Shown: piece after piece, positions 5,409 through 27,516 of the stretch | Layout: each line of letters starts with the position of its first letter | Numbering within the stretch: position 1 is the stretch's first letter | Source: Streptomyces sp. NRRL S-244 | GTDB taxonomy: Bacteria > Actinomycetota > Actinomycetes > Streptomycetales > Streptomycetaceae | Direction of reading: 5' to 3' | NCBI RefSeq assembly: GCF_000717915.1 | Contig: NZ_JOCX01000036.1 | Coordinates: 1 to 42,260, forward strand | Length of the DNA: 42,260 nucleotides | Program-made: the position numbers and the translations under genes | The notes under the pieces: generated by a model | What the model saw: the letters and a program-made list of their open reading frames with translations, nothing else | Told to the model about the DNA's origin: nothing | Database searches by the model: none

Positions 5409-7091
5409 TCAGCGGGTGTCCGGCGCGAAGGAGTCGAGCGCCGCGTCGAAGTGGCTCCGCGCCTCCGGGAGCCGGCCGACGGGCGCGGACACCCAGACGT
5501 CGTACATGCGCCCGTTCTCCTCCCAGCAGAGGTCGAAGGTGTGCCGGGCGCCTTCGGCGGCGGTGAAGCCGTTCCAGGTGAACTCCCACAGGGCGGCGGG
5601 CAGTCCGTTGTGCGTGGTCGGTACGACCGAGCCGTCGCGGTAGCCGGGGTTGCTGGCCGGGCCGCTCGCGTGCGAGAGGCGCATGACGGTGACCGGCCCC
5701 TCTGAGCCCGCGGGCTTCGTCTTGACGCCGATCCGGAAGGCCCCGTCCGGGGACACGTAGAAGACCCGCTGGTCGTCGGTGCTGCGCTGGAAACCGTTCG
5801 GTACGGCGAGGCTGAAGCCCTCGGCGTCGGACACCGTCCGGTACCCGGCGGGCGCGGGTTTGGCGTCGGCAGCGACGGCGGAGGCGACGGCGGAGGAAGC
5901 GGAGGAGGGGGCGGAGGCCCGGGCGGAGGCCCGGGCCGGGGCGGACGCGGTGGCGGGGGCGGGGGCCGTCTCCCGCGCGGCGTCCGGGGACCGCTCGCCG
6001 AACTGCGTGCTGACGGCCACGGCGCCGGCGACCGCGACGGCGAACAGCGCGGCGATCAGCCCCGCCCGCAGAGCGGGCCGGGTCCGCCGCGCCGGGGCGG
6101 ACGGCTGTACGACGTGCTCGGTGGGCGAGTACCCGACCGCGGCGCCGGGGCCACCCGGGCCGCCCGCGCCGCCCGGGCCACCCGGGCCACCCGGGCCACC
6201 CGCGCCGGACGCGGCCCCGGTCGCCGCGGCTGTCTCCGGACCCGTCCCGGGCGCCCGGTCGGCCACGGCGGGGACCGCTCCGGTGCTCACGTAGGCCGAC
6301 AGCAGCCGCTCGGCCTCCGCCGCTTCCATCCGCCGCTCCGGAAGGCGCTCCAGCAGGCCGCGGATGACCGGGGTCAGCGGCCCCGCTTGCGCCGGCGGCC
6401 GGATCTCCTCGTACACGACGGCATGCAGGACCCCGCCGAGCGAATCACGGTGGAACGGCGACTTCCCGGTCAGCGCCGCGCACAGCAGGACCCCGAGCGA
6501 CCACAGGTCGGATTCGGGACCCGCGGCCGCTCCCTGCATGCGCTCGGGCGAGGTGTACTCGGGCGAGCCGACGAACGCGCCGGTCTCGCTGATGGTGGTG
6601 GACCCGGCGAGCCGGGCGATGCCGAAGTCGGTCAGCACGACGCGCCCGGTCCCGGCCTCCAGGAGCACGTTGGCCGGCTTGACGTCCCGGTGGAGCACCC
6701 CGCGGGCGTGCGCCGCGCGCAGGGCGCCCAGCAGGGCCAGCCCCGTCCGCGCGGTCTCGGCGGGGTCCAGCGGCCCCTCGGCGCCGAGCCGGTCGGCCAG
6801 CGAGCCGCCCTCGACGAGTTCCATGACGATGTGGGGGCGCCCGTCGTGCTCCACGACGTCGTGCACCACCACCACGTGCGGATGCCTGACCTGCGCGACG
6901 GTCCGGGCCTCCCGCAGGGCGCCCCTGGCCTCCGTGCCCCCGTCGACATGGAGCTCCTTGACGGCTACGAGACGCCCGAGGAGCTCGTCGGAGGCCTGCC
7001 AGACGGTCCCCATGCCGCCGCGCCCCAACCGCCTCTCCAGGCGGTACCGTCCGGCGATCACGATGCTGCTGTCCGGCCCGTCGTGCGACAC
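5409..7091 (-). CDS. Transmembrane serine/threonine protein kinase
   Basis: A 560-aa Hanks-type kinase. The catalytic domain spans about residues 15-260: glycine loop GRGGMGTVW, VAVKEL lysine near 42, catalytic HRDVKPAN near 132, DFG near 155, then SPEYTSPE. A linker holds a Gly-Pro-Gly collagen-like run (about 290-315), followed by basic residues, a membrane helix (AGLIAALFAVAVAGAVAV, about 340-360), an Ala/Pro/Ser-rich stalk and an outer domain of about 150 residues with no PASTA repeats that I can see. GTG 7091 was chosen because GGAGGGG lies 7 bases upstream; longer frames run into the tRNA gene. The outer domain suggests sensing of an external cue, but its ligand is unknown. Confidence 0.9.
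   Translation of the reverse strand: MSHDGPDSSIVIAGRYRLERRLGRGGMGTVWQASDELLGRLVAVKELHVDGGTEARGALREARTVAQVRHPHVVVVHDVVEHDGRPHIVMELVEGGSLADRLGAEGPLDPAETARTGLALLGALRAAHARGVLHRDVKPANVLLEAGTGRVVLTDFGIARLAGSTTISETGAFVGSPEYTSPERMQGAAAGPESDLWSLGVLLCAALTGKSPFHRDSLGGVLHAVVYEEIRPPAQAGPLTPVIRGLLERLPERRMEAAEAERLLSAYVSTGAVPAVADRAPGTGPETAAATGAASGAGGPGGPGGPGGAGGPGGPGAAVGYSPTEHVVQPSAPARRTRPALRAGLIAALFAVAVAGAVAVSTQFGERSPDAARETAPAPATASAPARASARASAPSSASSAVASAVAADAKPAPAGYRTVSDAEGFSLAVPNGFQRSTDDQRVFYVSPDGAFRIGVKTKPAGSEGPVTVMRLSHASGPASNPGYRDGSVVPTTHNGLPAALWEFTWNGFTAAEGARHTFDLCWEENGRMYDVWVSAPVGRLPEARSHFDAALDSFAPDTR
6140..6215. repeat. GGGCCACCC-type tandem repeat inside the kinase gene
   Basis: A run of nine-base units of the type CGGGCCACC repeats about six to eight times with small changes, encoding the Gly-Pro-Gly linker between the kinase domain and the membrane helix. 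Length variation between strains is likely. Confidence 0.7.
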
Positions 7092-18774: not shown

Positions 18775-19360
18775 AGATGCTGCTCGCGTGTTTCACGACG
18801 GCGGCCTCGGTGACGAACAGCCGGGCCGCCAGGGCCTGGTTGTTGAGGCCCTCGGCCATGAGGCCCAGCACCTCGCGTTCGCGCGGGGTGAGCCGGGCGA
18901 GCGGCCGGTCCGCCGCCTGTCGCCCCAGCAGGACCCGGACGACCTCGGGGTCGATGACCGTCTGGCCCGCGGCGACCCGTTCGAGGGCGTCGAGGAACTC
19001 CGCCACCTCCCCGACCCGATCCTTGAGGAGGTAGCCCAGCCCGGCCGGACCGTCCGCCGCCGCACCGGCCGTCAGCAGCCGGGTCGCGTACGCCGTGGCG
19101 ACGTACTGCGAGAGCACGAGGACCGGCAACGAGCCGTCCCGGGAGCGCAGTTCGAGGGCGGCGCGCAGCCCCTCGTCGCGGAAACCGGGCGGCATCCGGA
19201 CGTCGGTGACGACGGCATCCGGCCGTTCGGCCTCCACCGCCCGTACCAGTGCGTCGCCGTCGCCGACGGCGGCGAGGACCCGGTGGCCGCCTCGGGTGAG
19301 GAGTTCCGTCAGCCCGGCGCGCAGCAGGACCGAGTCCTCCGCGAGGATCAACCGGAGCAC
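18692..19360 (-). CDS. NarL/LuxR-type response regulator
   Basis: A 222-aa two-component response regulator. The receiver domain shows acidic pocket residues (LAEDSVLLRAGL), phospho-acceptor Asp in VVTDVRMPP (about residue 53) and conserved Lys in YLLKDRV. The C-terminal LuxR helix-turn-helix is LTPREREVLGLMAEGLNNQALAARLFVTEAAVVKHASSIFMKLDL. It overlaps the stop of the histidine kinase gene by 13 bp, so the pair is translationally coupled. A convergent overlap of 83 bp with the glycosyltransferase gene lies at its 3' end. Target genes are unknown. Confidence 0.95.
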   Translation of the reverse strand: MLRLILAEDSVLLRAGLTELLTRGGHRVLAAVGDGDALVRAVEAERPDAVVTDVRMPPGFRDEGLRAALELRSRDGSLPVLVLSQYVATAYATRLLTAGAAADGPAGLGYLLKDRVGEVAEFLDALERVAAGQTVIDPEVVRVLLGRQAADRPLARLTPREREVLGLMAEGLNNQALAARLFVTEAAVVKHASSIFMKLDLDPAGGNRRVLAVLAHLRGAEG

Positions 19361-20682
19361 GGCACCTCCACCCGGAGTTCGGTGGGACCGCCCACCGGAC
19401 TGGACACCACCAGCCTGCCCTGCAACATCGCCACCCTGTCCGCGAGACCTGCCAGGCCCGCACCCGCACCGGGATCCGCCCCGCCGCGGCCGTCGTCGGT
19501 GACGGAGAGAGTCAGCCGGCCCCCGTCGACCTTACCGGCGATCCCGATGCGGGAGGCGCCACTGTGCTTGGCCGCGTTGGCCAGGGCCTCGGTGACGGTG
19601 AAGTACGCCGTGATCTCGACCGGTTCGGGCAGCCGCGGCACGTCCAGGTCGACGGTCACCGGCACGGGATGGCGCAGCGCGACCTCCGCGACGGCCGCCG
19701 CGAGCCCGTGGTCGGTGAGCACCTGTGGATGGATCCCCCGTACGAGGTCGCGCAGTTGCTCCAGCGCCCGGCGTGCCTCACCGCGGCCCCGGGCCACCAG
19801 CGCGGCCGCGTCGGCGGCCTGCGGCACGCGGCGCAGCTCCAGCTCGGCGAGGCCGAGGGTCATGCTGAGGGCGACCAGCTGCTGCTGCGCCCCGTCGTGC
19901 AAGTCGCGTTCGATACGCCGCCGTTCGGCCTCGAACGCGTCCACGAGACGTACCCGGGAGCGGGTCAGCTCCAGCACCCGGGGGTCCTCCTCGCGTGCTC
20001 CGAGCAGCAGGCGCGCGGTCTTCACCTGTGCCCCCGCGAGCAACCCGCCCGCGTACGCGGCCAGTACGAGCCCGACCAGTCCGACGGCGGTGCCGCCCAG
20101 GGCTTCCGGCGGGCCGGAGACGGCCCTGCCGGGGATCAGCATCACGGTCTCGGGGGCGAGGGCCCACACGACGACGGGGCTCGCCACGAGGATCAGCGAG
20201 AAGGCGAGCAGGGTGACGACCCCGAAGCCGGCCGCCCCGAACGCCGGCCCGAGCAGGGCGGCGTACCCGAGCTCCCGCCACGTGGCCCGCTCGCGCAGCC
20301 GGGTCCGCAGCCAGGCGGCCGGACCGGCCCCCGCGAGTGAGATGTGCGGATCGGGCACCGGGACCGGCTCCACCCACCGCAGCCGCCACCGCTCCAGGGC
20401 GCCGAGCGGCACACCGCCGGCGACGGCGCCGAGCAGCAGGAGCAGCCCGATCCCGGCCACCGCCAGCAGCACACCCAGCCCGACGAGCACCGCCAGCGCG
20501 AGCAGGACCCCGTACCCGAGGACCGTCCCGCTGCCGAGGTACGCCCAGCAGCGCCACGGCCACCAGGAGGCGAGGAATCGGACCGGCGTCTTCAGCGCCG
20601 CCCGGACGGCGACGGGCGGTTCGGCGCCCGGCGGTTCCTCGCGCGGCTCCCCGGGGGCGGCGGGTTCGGACATGCGGGACAT
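19348..20682 (-). CDS. Sensor histidine kinase, HisKA_3 type, partner of the response regulator
   Basis: A 444-aa kinase. The first half has several hydrophobic segments (VLLALAVLVGLGVLLAVAGIGLLLLLGAV and others, four to six helices), so sensing occurs at or in the membrane. The dimerisation/phosphotransfer box RIERDLHDGAQQQLVALSMTLGLAELELRRV has the reactive His near residue 261. The ATPase domain shows NAAKHSGASRIGI and the G-box DDGRGGADPGAGAGLAGLADRVAMLQG. ATG 20682 and ATG 20673 are both possible starts. The Pro/Glu-rich first 25 residues precede the membrane part. Signal unknown. Confidence 0.93.
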   Translation of the reverse strand: MSRMSEPAAPGEPREEPPGAEPPVAVRAALKTPVRFLASWWPWRCWAYLGSGTVLGYGVLLALAVLVGLGVLLAVAGIGLLLLLGAVAGGVPLGALERWRLRWVEPVPVPDPHISLAGAGPAAWLRTRLRERATWRELGYAALLGPAFGAAGFGVVTLLAFSLILVASPVVVWALAPETVMLIPGRAVSGPPEALGGTAVGLVGLVLAAYAGGLLAGAQVKTARLLLGAREEDPRVLELTRSRVRLVDAFEAERRRIERDLHDGAQQQLVALSMTLGLAELELRRVPQAADAAALVARGRGEARRALEQLRDLVRGIHPQVLTDHGLAAAVAEVALRHPVPVTVDLDVPRLPEPVEITAYFTVTEALANAAKHSGASRIGIAGKVDGGRLTLSVTDDGRGGADPGAGAGLAGLADRVAMLQGRLVVSSPVGGPTELRVEVPCSG

Positions 20683-21571: not shown

Positions 21572-22351
21572 GTGTCCGAATGGCTGGTCCTGGCCGTCGC
21601 CATGGCGCTCGTCTGCGCCCTCGTCCTCGCCTGCACCGCGCTCCGGCACCGCCGGGTCGCGGAGGACGAGGACACCAGCGAAACCCCCGACGTCATCGAG
21701 TACATGACGATGATGGTGGGCGTGGTCTACGCGATCGTGCTCGGCCTGGCCATCGCCGGAGTCTGGGAGGCGCGCGGCGCCGCCGAGGACAGCGTGCGCC
21801 GCGAGGCCCAGTCGCTGTACGAGGTCACCCAGCGCGCGGACGTCTACCCGGCCCCCGTCCGCGACCGGATCCGCGGCGAGGTCGACGCGTACGTCTCCCA
21901 CACCGTCGCCGTGGACTGGCCGCTGCTCACCTCCGGCCAGGGCGCCTCGTCCCAGGGCGCCGACCTGCTCGGCAAGCTGCGCACCGACGTGACCCACCAG
22001 AGCCCGGCGAACGAGCTCCAGGCGCAGGCCTACCAGCCGCTGCTGGACCACATCGCGGCCGCCGACGACGCCCGGCACTCGCGCATGCAGGCCGACGAGT
22101 CCACCCTGCCGAGCGTGGTGTGGTTCGGGCTGCTGGTCGGCGGATTGGTCACGGTGGGGCTGATCTTCACCCTGCAGATCCGCCGTTCGGGGCGGGAGCT
22201 GCTGCTGGCGGGGCTGTTCAGCGCGCTGATCGTGTTCCTGCTGTTCATGGTGTGGAGCTTCGACGCACCCTACGGCCGGGACGGAATCGATTCCGCGGGC
22301 CCGTTCCAGGACCTGTTCCCGAAGGTGGCGCTGGCCGCAGCCGAGCGCTGA
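21572..22351 (+). CDS. DUF4239 (bestrophin-like) membrane protein
   Basis: A 259-aa integral membrane protein. Two helices at the N-terminus (LVLAVAMALVCALVLACTAL and MMVGVVYAIVLGLAIAGVW), a soluble helical region of about 120 residues (AAEDSVRREAQSLYEVTQRADVYPAPVRDRIRGEVDAYVSH) and two C-terminal helices (LLVGGLVTVGLIFTLQI, LLLAGLFSALIVFLLFMVW). This arrangement and the E-A-x-S-L-x-x-L/V pattern fit DUF4239. GTG 21572 with GGGAGA upstream. It is 18 bp from the convergent MAB_1171c-type gene. Function is unknown; the relation to bestrophin channels is only a fold-level suggestion. Confidence 0.8.
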   Translation: MSEWLVLAVAMALVCALVLACTALRHRRVAEDEDTSETPDVIEYMTMMVGVVYAIVLGLAIAGVWEARGAAEDSVRREAQSLYEVTQRADVYPAPVRDRIRGEVDAYVSHTVAVDWPLLTSGQGASSQGADLLGKLRTDVTHQSPANELQAQAYQPLLDHIAAADDARHSRMQADESTLPSVVWFGLLVGGLVTVGLIFTLQIRRSGRELLLAGLFSALIVFLLFMVWSFDAPYGRDGIDSAGPFQDLFPKVALAAAER

Positions 22352-22369: not shown

Positions 22370-23557
22370 TCAGGCCGGTCCGCTCCCCGACAGCGCCACC
22401 TGCCGCCGTACGGCCGCCACCACCGGCGAATGCCGTAGCGCGTGCGAGATCCGTACGAGGTCGCGCGGCCCCCCGAGGGTGTCGAGGACGCTCTCGTCGC
22501 TCGCCCCGATGACCGCGCCCTCGGGGTCCGCCGAGCGGGCCTGGACGGCGGCCGCGACCATCGCCGCGTCGGCTACCGCCCGCGCCGTCTCCTCCTTCGC
22601 CCCCGCCGCGAGGGCCCGCGCGTACGCGTCCTCGCGGCGGCCGGGGTCGAAGTACGGGCCGAGGTGCAGGAATCCGTCGTGGATGTCCGACTCGCGCTGG
22701 ATCACCCGCAGCTCCGCCGGGGCCCACCAGGACATCTGCACGCAGGGCGTGCCGCTGGGGGCGCCGATCTGCACCTCGTGCCAGAGCGCGCCGAGGCGCC
22801 GGTACGTGGTCCAGGTCTGCCAGCTGTCGGACAGCCGCTGGCACAGCAGGGGCAGGACGAATCCGATCGCGCTGATCAGGGCGCCGACGGAGGCGAGCGG
22901 CGGGGCGATGTAGGTGCTCAGGTCGTCGAGGTCGTGGCCGGCCCAGCGGGCGACGACCGCGGAGATCTTGGTGGCGTCGTAGCTGAGGTTGAAGACGTAG
23001 CCCGAGACGATGATCATCAGGCCGATCCGCAGCCAGCCGTGCACCTGGAGGGACCAGCGCCAGCACATGGCCACCATCACGACGGCCGCCACCAGGTGCG
23101 CCGTCAGGTAGAGGGCGATCATCTGCTGGATGTACGGGGTGTTGGCGTAGTACGTGTCGAAGTCGCGCAGCCGCTCGACCGGGGCGTCGCCGAGCGCGAA
23201 GAGCACCACCAGCACCACGACGACCCCGCCGTAGCCGAGCATCCAGCGGCGCGAGATGCGCCGGGTCTCTTCGGGCGGGCCGCCGCGCCAGTTCACGATC
23301 AGCACCAGGCAGGCGGCGCTGAATAGGGTGATCAGGCAGTAGACGAGCGGGGCGGAGACGTTGGTGATGCCGGTCCACTTGTTGACCGCCTCGATGGTGG
23401 GCGGGGCGGCGAAGGTGAACACCGACCCGGCCAGGACCAGCAGGGCGCAGACCGACCGCAGGAGCGGGTCGCGCCAGTTGTGCCGTAGCGCCGGCAGCTT
23501 GAAGGCGAGTGAGACCGCCAGGGCGGCTGCCGGTATGTAGTAGTCCTGGCCGTTCAA
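22370..23557 (-). CDS. MAB_1171c-type multi-pass membrane protein (putative transporter or receptor)
   Basis: A 395-aa protein. About seven hydrophobic helices occupy residues 5-255 (YIPAAALAVSLAFKLPAL, ALLVLAGSVFTFAA, LVYCLITLFSAACLVLIVNW, WMLGYGGVVVVLVVLFALG, QMIALYLTAHLVAAVVMVAMCW, IGLMIIVSGYVFNLSY, LASVGALISAIGFVLPLL), then a cytoplasmic region of about 140 residues (WTTYRRLGALWHEVQIG ... ). The seven-helix region plus a helical C-terminal domain is characteristic of MAB_1171c (DUF6545) proteins. Start TTG 23557 overlaps the IrrE stop by 4 bp (TTGA), so the two are coupled. In actinobacteria these proteins go with XRE/IrrE pairs, as seen here. No transport activity can be inferred from sequence. 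Confidence 0.82.
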   Translation of the reverse strand: MNGQDYYIPAAALAVSLAFKLPALRHNWRDPLLRSVCALLVLAGSVFTFAAPPTIEAVNKWTGITNVSAPLVYCLITLFSAACLVLIVNWRGGPPEETRRISRRWMLGYGGVVVVLVVLFALGDAPVERLRDFDTYYANTPYIQQMIALYLTAHLVAAVVMVAMCWRWSLQVHGWLRIGLMIIVSGYVFNLSYDATKISAVVARWAGHDLDDLSTYIAPPLASVGALISAIGFVLPLLCQRLSDSWQTWTTYRRLGALWHEVQIGAPSGTPCVQMSWWAPAELRVIQRESDIHDGFLHLGPYFDPGRREDAYARALAAGAKEETARAVADAAMVAAAVQARSADPEGAVIGASDESVLDTLGGPRDLVRISHALRHSPVVAAVRRQVALSGSGPA

Positions 23558-24111
23558 CGGTCGTTCCTGTGCCCCCGGTATCCGAGCGAGGCCTCGATGC
23601 GGCCCGCCAACTGATCACGCTGTGCGGGCGCCCGATGGCTCGCGGAACCGGCGAGCCAGGTCCGGCACCGGCTGCCCAACAGTAAACCGAACGTCTCCGC
23701 CTCGGTCTCTTCCGAGACGTCGGCCCGCGTGCGCGCGGCCACGCTCCGGACGGTCTCGCCGAGGTCGGCCTCGTCGGAGAGCATCCGGGCGGCGACGGCG
23801 GCTCCGTCGACGTGGTGGCTGCAGTGGCCGGCCTTCATGTGCCACAGCTCGTGGCCCAGGATGACCAGCTGGTGGTCGGGTGCGGTGCGTTCCTCGATGA
23901 CCACCAGATCGCGGTCCGCCATGTCGAGCCACAGTCCGCTGGCCGTCCCCGGCGGGAACGAGGCCATCCGGAAGTCCACCCGGCGGCCGCGGTGTCTGCT
24001 CATGCCCTCGCAGAGGGCGGCGTAGAGGTCCACGGGTTCCACGGGCGCGGTCAGCCGGAGCCCGGCCACCAGTTCGCCGCACAACCGGCGCTGCTCTCTG
24101 CCTATGCTCAC
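23554..24111 (-). CDS. ImmA/IrrE-type metallopeptidase
   Basis: A 185-aa protein with the zinc-peptidase motif HELWH in LVILGHELWHMKAGHC (near residue 88) and a following acidic residue (ETEAETFGLLLG) that fits the third zinc ligand region of ImmA/IrrE proteins (COG2856 type). In ICEBs1 and related systems such peptidases cut an XRE repressor to turn on target genes. Here the XRE protein is encoded 67 bp upstream and the membrane protein overlaps its end by 4 bp. GTG 24111 has GGAGAAC just upstream. Catalytic activity is inferred from the motif; the substrate is most simply the adjacent XRE protein, but this is untested. Confidence 0.85.
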   Translation of the reverse strand: MSIGREQRRLCGELVAGLRLTAPVEPVDLYAALCEGMSRHRGRRVDFRMASFPPGTASGLWLDMADRDLVVIEERTAPDHQLVILGHELWHMKAGHCSHHVDGAAVAARMLSDEADLGETVRSVAARTRADVSEETEAETFGLLLGSRCRTWLAGSASHRAPAQRDQLAGRIEASLGYRGHRNDR

Positions 24112-24178
24112 CGTTCTCCCCGTCGGCGCGGATCCGGATCAGGACTCAAGGATCAGACCCAGACTCTCGACCGGGTCA

Positions 24179-24844
24179 TCATTCATTCGGTTTGACGCTT
24201 TCGAGAAGCATGTCCAGCCACTCGGTCACCTTGTCCCGGTGTTTGTCGCTGGGCAGTTGGGCCGCGCGCCAGGCGATGCCGCGGACACCGTGGTTCTGCA
24301 GGAGTCTTGCCAGCGGATCGCCGGTCGAAGCCGCCGGGGCGGGTACGGTTTCGCGCGTGCGGCCCGCGTAGTCCTGGAGCAGCTGCTGCTCGGTCCGCTG
24401 GAGGGCGTCGGTGAGGGCCTCGGCGTCGTGCGCGGTGAGGAAGCCGGCGTGGACGCCGAAGAAGCGCTGGATCGCGTCGCAGTGCTCCATGGTGGGCCGG
24501 CGGTCGCCGTTGATGAGGGCGCCCGCCTGCTGGCGGGACATGCCGGCGCCGTCCGCGATCTCCTGCTGTGTGTAGCGGCGTCCGTTCGGTTTCAGCCGGG
24601 TGCGCCGGAGCAGGTCGAGGCGCTGGAGGAAGCGCGTCTGCAGGCAGGGCTCGACGGCGGGCCGGCCGTCCAGCAGGGACCGGACCACGTCGGCGGGTAC
24701 GCCGGAGGCCTCGGAGAGGCGGCGCAGGTCGAAGACCTTGTTCAGGTCGTGGCCCATCTTGCCCGCGAGTTCGGCGACGCGCGTGACGGTGGCTGCCAGG
24801 GGCGCGTTGGCCACCGCGACGGGAGCCGGGAAGCCGTCTGTCAC
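24179..24844 (-). CDS. XRE-family transcriptional regulator
   Basis: A 221-aa regulator. The helix-turn-helix is near residues 94-121 (YTQQEIADGAGMSRQQAGALINGDRRPTMEHCDAIQRFFG). Before it is a helical region (MGHDLNKVFDLRRLSEASGVPADVVRSLLDGRP) that resembles a second, degenerate HTH. GTG 24844 was chosen since AGGAGA lies eight bases upstream and the upstream frame is otherwise Arg/Pro-rich without a ribosome-binding site. It is the first gene of the unit with the IrrE peptidase and the MAB_1171c protein, and it is divergent from an MmyB-type regulator. It may repress its own operon; the palindrome at 24935-24948 is a candidate site. Confidence 0.9.
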   Translation of the reverse strand: MTDGFPAPVAVANAPLAATVTRVAELAGKMGHDLNKVFDLRRLSEASGVPADVVRSLLDGRPAVEPCLQTRFLQRLDLLRRTRLKPNGRRYTQQEIADGAGMSRQQAGALINGDRRPTMEHCDAIQRFFGVHAGFLTAHDAEALTDALQRTEQQLLQDYAGRTRETVPAPAASTGDPLARLLQNHGVRGIAWRAAQLPSDKHRDKVTEWLDMLLESVKPNE

Positions 24845-24934
24845 CAGTGGTTCTCCTAGATCGCGGCGGGGTCGGTACGGGCACATGGTCGGCTTTTGGA
24901 ATCTAGCCGAGGACCCGCCGCAGGGCCAGAACTT

Positions 24935-24948
24935 GCCACAGCTGTGGC
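24935..24948. promoter_or_regulatory. 14-bp perfect palindrome in the divergent XRE/MmyB region
   Basis: GCCACAGCTGTGGC is perfectly self-complementary. A TTGCCAC that includes its left arm recurs at about 24975-24981. It lies about 90 bp before the XRE start and 40 bp upstream of the -35 of the MmyB-type gene, so either regulator could use it. Confidence 0.55.
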
Positions 24949-24986
24949 GGGAATGAGCTGTCAAGAGGCTGGAATTGCCACGATAG

Positions 24987-25016
24987 TTGACACTCGAATG
25001 AAGTCGGTAGCAGGAT
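24987..25016 (+). promoter_or_regulatory. Promoter of the MmyB-type regulator
   Basis: TTGACA (24987-24992) is followed after 18 bases by CAGGAT (25011-25016), nearly the consensus for the vegetative sigma factor. It gives a leader of about 40 bases before GTG 25064. Confidence 0.65.
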
Positions 25017-25063
25017 CGCCAGAGGAAATTGAAGATCCAGACCGTGAAGAGGGGGAGCTCTCG

Positions 25064-26053
25064 GTGCCACATCTCGCAGCGGTGGGCCCGTCCGATGGGT
25101 TTGCCCGAGCCGGTGAGGAGCGCCTTGCGGGCGAAGAGTCCGCACGCGGCGCAGTGCGGTCGGAGCGACGCAAGGAGATTTTGCGCCAGCGGCGCGAGGA
25201 ACTGGGCCTGAGCCAGGAGGACCTCGCCGCCCGGCTGCGCATCAGCGTCCGCGCCTACGGCAACTGGGAACGCGGCCTGGTCAAGGAATGGACCGACCGC
25301 AAACTGCTCGCCCTGGCCGAGGCCTTGGAGATGAGCGAGCGGCAGTGCTTCTGGCTCTTCCGCGTCATGGTCGACCGGGACCCGCCGTCGACCTGGCGGG
25401 CGGCCGAGGAGAGCCGGCTGCCCCAGGACCCCGCCCAGCGCGACTACCTGTGCGACTACGCGGCGCTCATGGAGGCCGTGCCGTACCCGAGCTTCCTGGT
25501 GGACCACCGCTGGGACGTGGCGCTCACCAACTCGGCGTTCGACAAGCTCTTCCAGTCGGTGCGCCCGCATCCGACGGCCCTGCCGGACGACAACTTCCTG
25601 CGCTTCGTGCTGTTCCACCCGGACGCCGCGGCCGTGCTGGAGGACCACGAACCGGCCTGGTGCGTACCGCTGCTGGCCCAGTTCGCCGGCGCGCTCGCCG
25701 CGGCCCCGGAGGACGAGGGCCTGAGCAGCATCCGCCAGGAGGTGGCCCGCGATCCGTTCATGGAGGCGGCCTACCGCTACGGGGTGCCGCACTGGCTGAG
25801 CACCCACGGGGCGGACGCCGCCGAGCGCGACGGGGCCGTGCGGACCGTCCGCCACTGGGACCCGCGCTGGGGCCACGTGCGCTGCCGGATGGTGGCCGAA
25901 TCCAGCCGGATGCTCGACGGGATGGGCCTCACCCGGATCACCATGATCCTGTCGACTCCGCAGGGCGCGGCGACGGACCCGGTCCGGGGCGGCGCGACCG
26001 CCCCGCTCCACCAGGGGCCCCGGCTGCGCGCCGTGCCCTCGCTGGAGGACTAG
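25064..26053 (+). CDS. XRE regulator with MmyB-like ligand-binding domain
   Basis: A 329-aa protein from GTG 25064. The N-terminal helix-turn-helix (RRKEILRQRREELGLSQEDLAARLRISVRAYGNWERGLV) is followed by a long domain with the MmyB pattern (VDRDPPSTWRAAEE ... YAALMEAVPYPSFLVDHRWDVALTNSAFDKLFQSVRPHPTALPDDNFLRFVLFHPDA), which in related Streptomyces regulators has a fatty-acid-like ligand pocket. The GTG has GAGGGGGAG at the right distance; longer starts (24896, 24998) lie upstream of the promoter found here. It is divergent from the XRE/IrrE/MAB_1171c unit and may control it. Ligand unknown. Confidence 0.88.
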   Translation: MPHLAAVGPSDGFARAGEERLAGEESARGAVRSERRKEILRQRREELGLSQEDLAARLRISVRAYGNWERGLVKEWTDRKLLALAEALEMSERQCFWLFRVMVDRDPPSTWRAAEESRLPQDPAQRDYLCDYAALMEAVPYPSFLVDHRWDVALTNSAFDKLFQSVRPHPTALPDDNFLRFVLFHPDAAAVLEDHEPAWCVPLLAQFAGALAAAPEDEGLSSIRQEVARDPFMEAAYRYGVPHWLSTHGADAAERDGAVRTVRHWDPRWGHVRCRMVAESSRMLDGMGLTRITMILSTPQGAATDPVRGGATAPLHQGPRLRAVPSLED

Positions 26054-26160: not shown

Positions 26161-27516
26161 GTGCGGCTGACCATCCTCGGCGGGGGCGGATTCCGGGTCC
26201 CGCTCGTCTACGGTGCACTCCTCGGCGACCATGCCGAGGGCCGGGTGTCCCAGGTGACGCTGTACGACGAGGACCCCGCCCGGCTCCGCGCCATGGCCCG
26301 GGTGCTGGCGGACCAGGCGGCCGCCTCCGGAGCGCCCGACGCCCCGGCCGTCACCGCCACCGGGGACCTCGACGAGGCCCTGCGCGGGGCCGACTTCGTC
26401 TTCTCCGCCATCCGCGTCGGCGGCCTCGAAGGGCGCGCCGCCGACGAGCGGGTCGCGCTGGCCGAGGGCGTGCTGGGCCAGGAGACGGTCGGCGCGGGCG
26501 GGATCGCGTACGGCCTGCGGACGGTGCCGGTCGCCCGGGAGATCGCCCGCCGGGTGGCCCGCATCGCCCCCGAGGCCTGGGTCATCAACTTCACCAACCC
26601 GGCCGGGCTGGTCACCGAGGCCATGGCCGAGGAGCTCGGCGACCGGGTGATCGGGATCTGCGATTCCCCGGTGGGGCTCGGCCGGCGCATCGCCCGGCTG
26701 CTCGGTGCCCGCCCCGAGGAGGCCTGGATCGACTACGTCGGCCTCAACCACCTGGGCTGGGTCCGCGGGCTGCGCATCGGCGGCCGCGACGAACTGCCGC
26801 GGCTGCTGGCCGACACCGAGGCGCTGGAGTCCTTCGAGGAGGGCCGCCTGTTCGGGGCCGAGTGGCTGCGCTCGCTCGGCGCGATCCCGAACGAGTACCT
26901 GCACTATTACTACTTCAACCGCGACACCGTACGGGCGTACACGCAGGCCAAGCAGACCCGCGGGGCGTTCCTGCGCGACCAGCAGCGCGGGTTCTACGCC
27001 GAGGCGGGCCGGGCGGACCAGGCGGCCGGGGCGGCGCTGGCCGCCTGGGACCGGACCCGGGCCGAGCGGGAGGCCACGTACATGGCCGAGAACCGCGAGG
27101 CGGCCGGCATGGGCGAGCGCGACGAGAGCGATCTGGAGTCCGGCGGGTACGAGAAGGTGGCGCTCGCGCTGATGCGGGCCATCGCGCGGGACGAGCGGGC
27201 CACGCTGATCCTCAACGTGCCGGGCCGCGGCGTGCTGTCCGTGCTCGACGCGCAGGCGGTCATCGAGGTGCCGTGCCTGGTCGACGCGAACGGCGCGCAC
27301 CCGGTGGCCGTGGACCCGCTGCCGCTGCACGCGGTGGGCCTGGTGACCTCCGTCAAGGCGGTCGAGCGGGAGGTGCTCGCGGCCGCCGCGAGCGGCTCCC
27401 GGGCGGACGCCGTCAAGGCCTTCGCGCTGCACCCGCTGGTGGACTCGGTCGGGGTGGCCCGGCGGCTGCTGGAAGGGTACGCGGCCGAGCACCCGGGCCT
27501 GGCCTACCTGCGCTGA
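26161..27516 (+). CDS. GH4 family glycosidase (6-phospho-beta-glucosidase-like)
   Basis: A 451-aa NAD- and Mn-dependent glycosidase. It hydrolyses phosphorylated (or related) glycosides by oxidation and elimination rather than by acid-base attack. The Rossmann motif ILGGGGFRVPLVYGALL opens the protein; the metal-binding Cys sits in GICDSPVGL (near 162), and GLNHLGWVRGL carries another active-site His near 199; NFTNPAGLVTEAM is also a GH4 hallmark. GTG 26161 is 107 bp after the MmyB-type gene. Exact substrate (cellobiose-6-P or other) is not decided by sequence. No PTS or ABC sugar transporter gene is adjacent. Confidence 0.92.
   Translation: MRLTILGGGGFRVPLVYGALLGDHAEGRVSQVTLYDEDPARLRAMARVLADQAAASGAPDAPAVTATGDLDEALRGADFVFSAIRVGGLEGRAADERVALAEGVLGQETVGAGGIAYGLRTVPVAREIARRVARIAPEAWVINFTNPAGLVTEAMAEELGDRVIGICDSPVGLGRRIARLLGARPEEAWIDYVGLNHLGWVRGLRIGGRDELPRLLADTEALESFEEGRLFGAEWLRSLGAIPNEYLHYYYFNRDTVRAYTQAKQTRGAFLRDQQRGFYAEAGRADQAAGAALAAWDRTRAEREATYMAENREAAGMGERDESDLESGGYEKVALALMRAIARDERATLILNVPGRGVLSVLDAQAVIEVPCLVDANGAHPVAVDPLPLHAVGLVTSVKAVEREVLAAAASGSRADAVKAFALHPLVDSVGVARRLLEGYAAEHPGLAYLR

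Follow-up and report, generated by a model that had tools for sequence, protein, structure and literature searches.

In Streptomyces sp. NRRL S-244, a 42,260-nucleotide stretch of DNA (contig NZ_JOCX01000036.1, positions 1 to 42,260; hereafter the window), which belongs to a 7.1-Mb genome with relatives in the genus Streptomyces, carries a minus-strand operon of three genes for an XRE-type regulator, a putative zinc peptidase of the M78 type (ImmA/IrrE fold) and a MAB_1171c/DUF6545 membrane protein, opposite a divergent gene for an MmyB-type protein. This operon and the wide recurrence of its trio in actinobacteria suggest an unrecognised route from a membrane signal to genes. The best reading, which we hold with about even confidence, is that a seven-transmembrane (7TM) sensor acts on the peptidase, which in turn inactivates the regulator, a relative of mycobacterial EspR. 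It is favoured because peptidases of the same fold act on helix-turn-helix (HTH) proteins, as for ImmA on ImmR (PMC2701414) and IrrE on DdrO, because the trio recurs so broadly, and because no variation is seen in the metal site of the peptidase.

The XRE gene (24179..24844, minus strand; 221 aa, with a GTG start picked by conservation) lies 67 bp from the gene of the HELWH peptidase (23554..24111, minus strand; 185 aa), whose stop codon overlaps by 4 bp (TTGA) the TTG start of the membrane protein gene (22370..23557, minus strand; 395 aa). The MmyB-type gene (25064..26053, plus strand; 329 aa, GTG start) is transcribed away from them. This layout had been given correctly in the original prediction, which was made from the DNA letters of the window, down to the coordinates, the gap, the overlap and the divergent gene. 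Among 38 close loci read at this position, the start codon of the membrane gene and the base that follows it are TTGA in 37 and GTGA in one. The identities proposed for three of the proteins are borne out by profile matches, to HTH_3 for the XRE protein, to HTH_3 and MLTR_LBD for the MmyB-type protein, and to NF042915 (148.9 bits, cut-off 100) and PF20182 (50.4 bits, cut-off 24.4) for the membrane protein.

Conservation of the neighborhood was followed, with profiles built here, in an orthologous set made of the best 80 of 132 loci with peptidase relatives, 71-98% identical. The XRE gene is directly upstream of the peptidase gene in 80/80 of these loci, the divergent MmyB-type gene is present in 79/80, the remaining one being a short contig cut inside the XRE gene, and the membrane gene directly follows the peptidase gene in 59/80. 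The four-gene arrangement is thus far from chance, and gene order, whose lack of conservation in relatives the original prediction had set beforehand as grounds for abandoning its proposal, is kept. On a quick tree of the peptidase and XRE proteins, with SH-aLRT as its only support measure, the membrane gene appears to have been lost once (support 95). Presence or absence of an HTH in the divergent gene calls for two or more changes on this tree, of which starred branches force only one. Of 199 genomes from the genus, 152 contain a peptidase match at E <= 0.001, and one contains nine. In five loci examined from the clade devoid of the membrane gene (L044, L048, L054, L061, L072; loci and genomes are designated by L and G numbers), a 74-78-aa protein is encoded after the peptidase; a Pfam scan of one such protein, that of L054, gave no match.

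The name IrrE given to the HELWH protein in the original prediction was a motif guess, because the protein itself has no database match. As a single sequence, it gave none at E <= 0.01 in Pfam, NCBIfam and PADLOC, PF06114 included, and none at E <= 0.1 in the PDB; a profile of 34 of its relatives retrieved no M78 entry from the PDB by sequence, the best match being a zinc metalloproteinase at E 0.21. At the level of the fold, the label is supported, because 14 of the 34 aligned family members match Peptidase_M78 (best E 5.2e-5) and because the best structural matches of the predicted model are PprI/IrrE; Foldseek alone yielded no match at E <= 0.001 for this model or for that of the membrane protein. 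The zinc-binding, catalytic HELWH motif (H87, E88 and H91; 23839..23853, minus strand) and E135 (23707..23709, minus strand), which by analogy with the IrrE family is likely the third zinc ligand, are found in 132/132 family sequences and are invariant in 34/34 diverse members. In locus L060, the peptidase gene (6001-6603) shows two overlapping profile matches, as if the segment behind the motif had been duplicated or inserted.

The membrane protein is predicted to comprise seven transmembrane helices (residues 1-240; 22838..23557, minus strand) and a cytosolic, helical DUF6545 domain that corresponds to the PF20182 match (residues 246-375; 22433..22822, minus strand) and contains D294, invariant in 33/33 sequences of the family alignment. 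Its N-out/C-in topology was predicted with hydrophobicity averaged over the family, as counts of hydrophobic segments in individual proteins, 7 to 15 by a crude rule, were too rough. In the structural model, a single 7-helix bundle in an arrangement like that of G protein-coupled receptors (GPCRs) is followed by a helical C-terminal part. The likeness to GPCRs, seven helices in N-out/C-in orientation, is one of predicted shape only, and no GPCR was found among the PDB sequence matches of the protein. Two MAB_1171c-type proteins are fused in one open frame in L129 (2522-5188, minus strand), and tandem separate membrane genes occur in the paralogous loci L115, L116, L118, L119, L124, L125, L127 and L128. 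In four loci (L169:3072-3680, L195:6384-6962, L196:6315-6944 and L198:6358-6945), the membrane gene is followed by a gene for a small protein with weak matches to PAP2 (lipid phosphatase), all below the Pfam cut-off. In the window, a gene for a Bestrophin-like membrane protein (21572-22348) is convergent with the MAB_1171c gene, as in most loci of the same clade.

By sequence comparison, the XRE protein is EspR-like over its HTH (residues ~75-150) and its C-terminal helices, where a conserved segment spans residues ~176-217. Its family call in the original prediction stands, and the likeness to EspR had been missed. Alignment of its family with the EspR-like family by hhalign gave a probability of 97.9 and an E value of 3.9e-13 over residues 64-213. 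The best PDB matches of the family profile are EspR entries, at E 0.01 only, and the single sequence retrieved no EspR at E <= 0.1. Closer links are provided by other loci, since the XRE partner in L170 has a PDB match to EspR at E 6e-23, and the XRE genes of L184 and L185 look like espR itself, the L184 protein matching PDB entry 3r1f at E 2e-67.

The genus of L184, Mycobacterium-like as judged by its EspR, was surveyed in 118 genomes, 117 of which encode EspR. Any peptidase match at E <= 0.001 is limited to 75 of them, of which 62 encode an orthologue (>= 74% identity), and the membrane gene occurs in the identical 62 genomes, a shared set that does not represent 62 independent events because the genomes are related. 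In 61 genomes of this set, the peptidase gene is found at a distance of 1.08-2.74 kb from espR, and in the last it is on another contig; in 60 of those 61 the distance is 1.08-1.29 kb, close to the size of the membrane gene. The coordinates of the peptidase and membrane genes touch in 12/12 pairs compared. In M. tuberculosis, rv3848 is described as lying upstream of espR (PMC3315491). The link between the membrane proteins of the window and of the mycobacteria rests on family models and gene context: pairwise BLASTP between the two was not significant, and the mycobacterial protein scores 41 bits against NF042915, below the cut-off of 100, and 23.9 bits against PF20182, for a cut-off of 24.4.

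How constant the trio is depends on the set of loci considered. In 20 paralogous Streptomyces loci, with peptidases ~44-56% identical to that of the window, a MAB_1171c-type gene stands beside the peptidase gene in 20/20 (in two of them with a flavin adenine dinucleotide (FAD) gene between), and an EspR-like XRE gene is found within 0.5 kb in only 8/20; it is 2.7 kb off in L114, and none is present in the stretch in 11. Of the signalling unit put forward in the original prediction, what holds is a conserved unit with an ImmA/IrrE-type peptidase by an XRE regulator and a protein of 7TM-receptor shape, whereas its simple ImmR analogy fits poorly with these paralogous loci, in which the most constant pair is that of the peptidase and the membrane protein. 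A search with NF042915 as the sole query, across 197 genomes of the class, gave matches at E <= 0.001 in 37. Outside Streptomyces, 20 of the 24 hits, in 18 genomes, were retained, leaving out those of G245, G313, G274 and G347, of which G245 and G347 also have the peptidase. In 20/20 of the retained loci, the gene immediately before the membrane gene encodes a peptidase with an HExxH motif, and an EspR-like XRE gene lies within 1.2 kb, within 160 bp in 18; this gene is upstream on the same strand in 15, downstream on the same strand in one and convergent in four. The weakest profile scores were 87 bits for the XRE protein, 97 for the peptidase and 106 for the membrane protein, with profiles that had a subset of these loci as seeds and the full set in their iterations, and hence are not independent of them. 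In 20 Streptomyces loci chosen by the membrane family, which cover 21 of 42 hits, a peptidase is nearby in 16 and an EspR-like XRE in 11, three of them 1.3-1.9 kb off; the peptidase profile gave no match in L187, L197, L199 and L200, and in L190 the gene order is membrane gene, XRE, peptidase.

A FAD_binding_3 monooxygenase gene, assigned by Pfam on four proteins, lies on the same strand as the membrane gene and no more than 1.5 kb from it in 18/20 paralogous loci, in 18/59 orthologous loci that have a membrane gene and in 6/20 Streptomyces loci chosen by the membrane family, and in 0/20 outside Streptomyces; it was seen beside the membrane gene in L113, L117, L125, L199 and L202-L205, among others. 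As a speculation, the monooxygenase might produce the compound that is sensed, or alter it.

Two conserved, operator-like elements lie in the 219-bp region between the divergent genes. O1, a perfect 14-bp palindrome (GCCACAGCTGTGGC; 24935..24948, no strand) and a candidate operator, matches its consensus GCCACAGYTGTGGC without mismatch in 68 and with one mismatch in 11 of the 79 loci, and O2 (TGTCAACTATCGTGGCAAT; 24974..24992, minus strand) matches its consensus TGTCAACTATYGTGGCAWT exactly in 76 and with two mismatches in three. The two are 43-44 bp apart, start to start, in 79/79 loci. Mononucleotide shuffles reach O1 (<=1 mismatch) in 1/1580. In the whole 7.1-Mb genome, no further match was found to exact O1 or, with <=2 mismatches, to the 17-base core of O2; no regulon is predicted, since the elements occur nowhere else in it. 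The lone genome match of O1 means little, because a backward control pattern also occurs once, and the weight falls on conservation. Scans for sigma-70 promoters and terminators were empty. The XRE protein is probably the likelier binder of O1 and O2, since both elements persist in the 37 loci in which the MmyB-type protein has no HTH.

Indeed, only 42 of the 79 divergent genes encode an HTH together with the ligand-binding domain, the other 37 encoding the ligand-binding domain only; two divergent proteins scanned gave 55.8 and 43.0 bits for MLTR_LBD. Because it lacks an HTH in 37/79 loci, the MmyB-type protein cannot be an ordinary DNA-binding regulator there, and the original prediction that it sets a basal level is doubtful as worded. 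An HTH-less member appears to have been deleted in S. lincolnensis. The published guide target for SLCG_7083 is found exactly in 8/136 loci, always inside a divergent gene of the ligand-binding-domain-only type, and length and domain agree as well, so that SLCG_7083 is very probably the orthologue of this gene; XRE genes would then be its neighbors in S. lincolnensis. SLCG_7083 is a 223-aa MLTR_LBD-only protein, treated as a transcriptional regulator though no HTH is described in it in the passages of the report drawn on here, in which divergent XRE-peptidase genes are not discussed either (PMC10717218). In those passages, its deletion raised the expression of six lipid-metabolism and two sporulation or division genes and lowered that of two cyclitol-cluster genes (PMC10717218), a profile that, by analogy with MltR, in which a fatty acid modelled as myristate is held (PMC3406030), fits a fatty-acid-type ligand. 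In the window, a GH4-family glycosidase gene (26161-27513) comes right after the MmyB-type gene. The two are linked in the clade of the window and in L043 and lie 3 kb apart in L060, and GH4 was not found nearby in other relatives; a partnership between them was dropped, the MmyB-type gene staying with the XRE gene in relatives.

In the mechanism that we propose, the 7TM receptor-like MAB_1171c/DUF6545 protein would be co-produced with the cytosolic peptidase, and at rest the XRE protein, bound at O1 and O2, would control its own operon as well as the MmyB-type gene. On meeting a cue, perhaps a lipid, the 7TM protein might switch the peptidase on through its cytosolic DUF6545 domain; the active peptidase would cleave or otherwise inactivate the XRE protein, and expression from the divergent promoter would change. 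The MmyB-type ligand-binding protein could constitute a second, intracellular input.

Several observations weigh against this mechanism, and the main doubt bears on the substrate of the peptidase: in loci beyond the orthologous set the peptidase gene is paired more tightly with the membrane gene than with the XRE gene, and the reverse is true within one orthologous clade. The membrane gene is absent from 21/80 orthologous loci (two of them at contig ends) that keep XRE and peptidase, and other substrates are possible because the XRE gene is missing beside most paralogous pairs. L199 and L200 have XRE and membrane genes and no peptidase match, EspR is kept in 55 mycobacterial genomes devoid of the orthologous peptidase-membrane pair, and the loci compared showed no fusion of XRE with peptidase or of peptidase with membrane protein, the only fusion being the MAB-MAB protein. 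The likeness to GPCRs reaches a best E of 0.12 by Foldseek, and the Z ranking toward GPCRs is a re-look at Foldseek's own candidates. Lastly, none of the 10 genes changed on SLCG_7083 deletion, as given in the passages drawn on here, is numbered next to SLCG_7083 (PMC10717218), so that the XRE operon is unlikely to be strongly controlled by that protein under those conditions.

The paralogous loci fit well with a different arrangement, in which the 7TM protein and the peptidase are the core, the peptidase acts on a substrate other than, or in addition to, the neighboring XRE protein, for instance another regulator or a membrane protein, and the XRE protein just sets operon expression. The peptidase gene is most tightly paired with the membrane gene, by the overlap of stop and start codons, by the coordinates that touch in mycobacteria, by the identical 62-genome distribution, by the paralogous counts (20/20 against 8/20) and by an r of 0.86 against 0.64. 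We nevertheless regard this arrangement as unlikely, if well worth keeping in mind, given the invariable XRE gene upstream of the orthologous peptidases and its proximity in all the non-Streptomyces loci, the Streptomyces clade that retains XRE and peptidase alone, and the HTH nature of the substrates known for this fold, ImmR (PMC2701414) and DdrO. It is scarcely probable that the peptidase fold serves as a non-proteolytic sensor or scaffold. PrpR-type regulators have the same fold and bind acyl-CoA, but all four metal-site residues are invariant in the 34 diverse members of the present family.

In another scenario, the membrane protein would be a transporter, and the XRE protein and the peptidase would only regulate its synthesis. 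NCBIfam names NF042915 'putative transporter', and an M. abscessus MAB_1171c mutant was reported to form ~50% less biofilm and to have lower minimal inhibitory concentrations of clarithromycin and cefoxitin, with that of amikacin unchanged (PMC8707978). These phenotypes fit a sensor equally well, no transporter family was matched in Pfam at E <= 0.01, and the single 7-helix bundle with its GPCR-like arrangement and helical C-terminal part weighs against this scenario, so that a transporter appears quite improbable. Very improbable is a toxin-antitoxin pair, with the HELWH protein as toxin and the XRE protein as antitoxin, in spite of the NCBI name 'toxin-antitoxin system, toxin component' borne by most of the listed peptidase relatives that carry an NCBI name, and of the proposal that Xre-COG2856 pairs are TA-like (PMC2701414), a paper that itself reads COG2856 as a repressor protease. 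Distant peptidase copies do occur in plasmid records, but in 32 of 72,556 only, all at < 60% identity and 27 of the 32 records non-mobilizable; a phage search at E <= 1e-5 gave no match, so that the mobile, patchy, phage- or plasmid-borne character of type II toxin-antitoxin systems was not observed. The stable synteny, the added 7TM gene and the presence of espR, a known regulator, in the place of the XRE gene in two loci read in detail also weigh against such a pair. Nothing was found in support of the 'toxin' name.

Among known systems, those closest to the 7TM-peptidase-XRE chain favoured here are ImmA-ImmR of ICEBs1 and the COG2856-Xre pairs, in which an M78-fold peptidase gene adjoins that of an XRE-type repressor (PMC2701414); the window locus differs by a 7TM gene overlapping the peptidase gene, an EspR-like XRE protein and no phage copy found. 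With EspR of Mycobacterium, a nucleoid-associated protein that bridges DNA (PDB 3r1f, 3qf3, 4ndw), the XRE protein shares the region aligned above, and true espR adjoins the peptidase and membrane genes in nearly all the genomes having them, but the protein of the window is extended at its N terminus and its linker is variable. IrrE/PprI of Deinococcus differs from the window peptidase in having additional domains and in responding to damaged DNA. We know of no 7TM partner for IrrE/PprI-DdrO. The MmyB-type protein resembles MmyB/MltR regulators, with their HTH and PAS-like MLTR ligand-binding domain (3pxp; PMC3406030), except that the S. coelicolor members described there adjoin antibiotic genes or SDR/MDR reductases (PMC3406030) and that of the window adjoins XRE-peptidase genes and is often HTH-less in relatives. 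Xre-M78 pairs are thus already known, and the coupled 7TM third gene and the EspR-type partners appear to be the new part; in the open-licence literature, which is only part of what is in print, no description was found of an Xre-M78 module with either, and DUF6545 was not found by name.

More tentatively, and with somewhat less than even confidence, an actinobacterial class of 7TM-receptor/M78-peptidase pairs may control EspR-family proteins by proteolysis, with many mycobacterial EspR proteins under such a pair and EspR freed from it in lineages that lack the pair. If true, proteolytic control of EspR-family proteins would be a bacterial counterpart of receptor-triggered transcription factor release, would provide a function for the large MAB_1171c/DUF6545 membrane family, now called transporter, would replace a misleading 'toxin' name, and would offer an upstream control for EspR-type regulators. 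The up to nine peptidase matches per Streptomyces genome would then be parallel sensing channels. Elsewhere in the window, the minus strand encodes a sensor histidine kinase (19351-20682) whose sensor domain belongs to PF13796.

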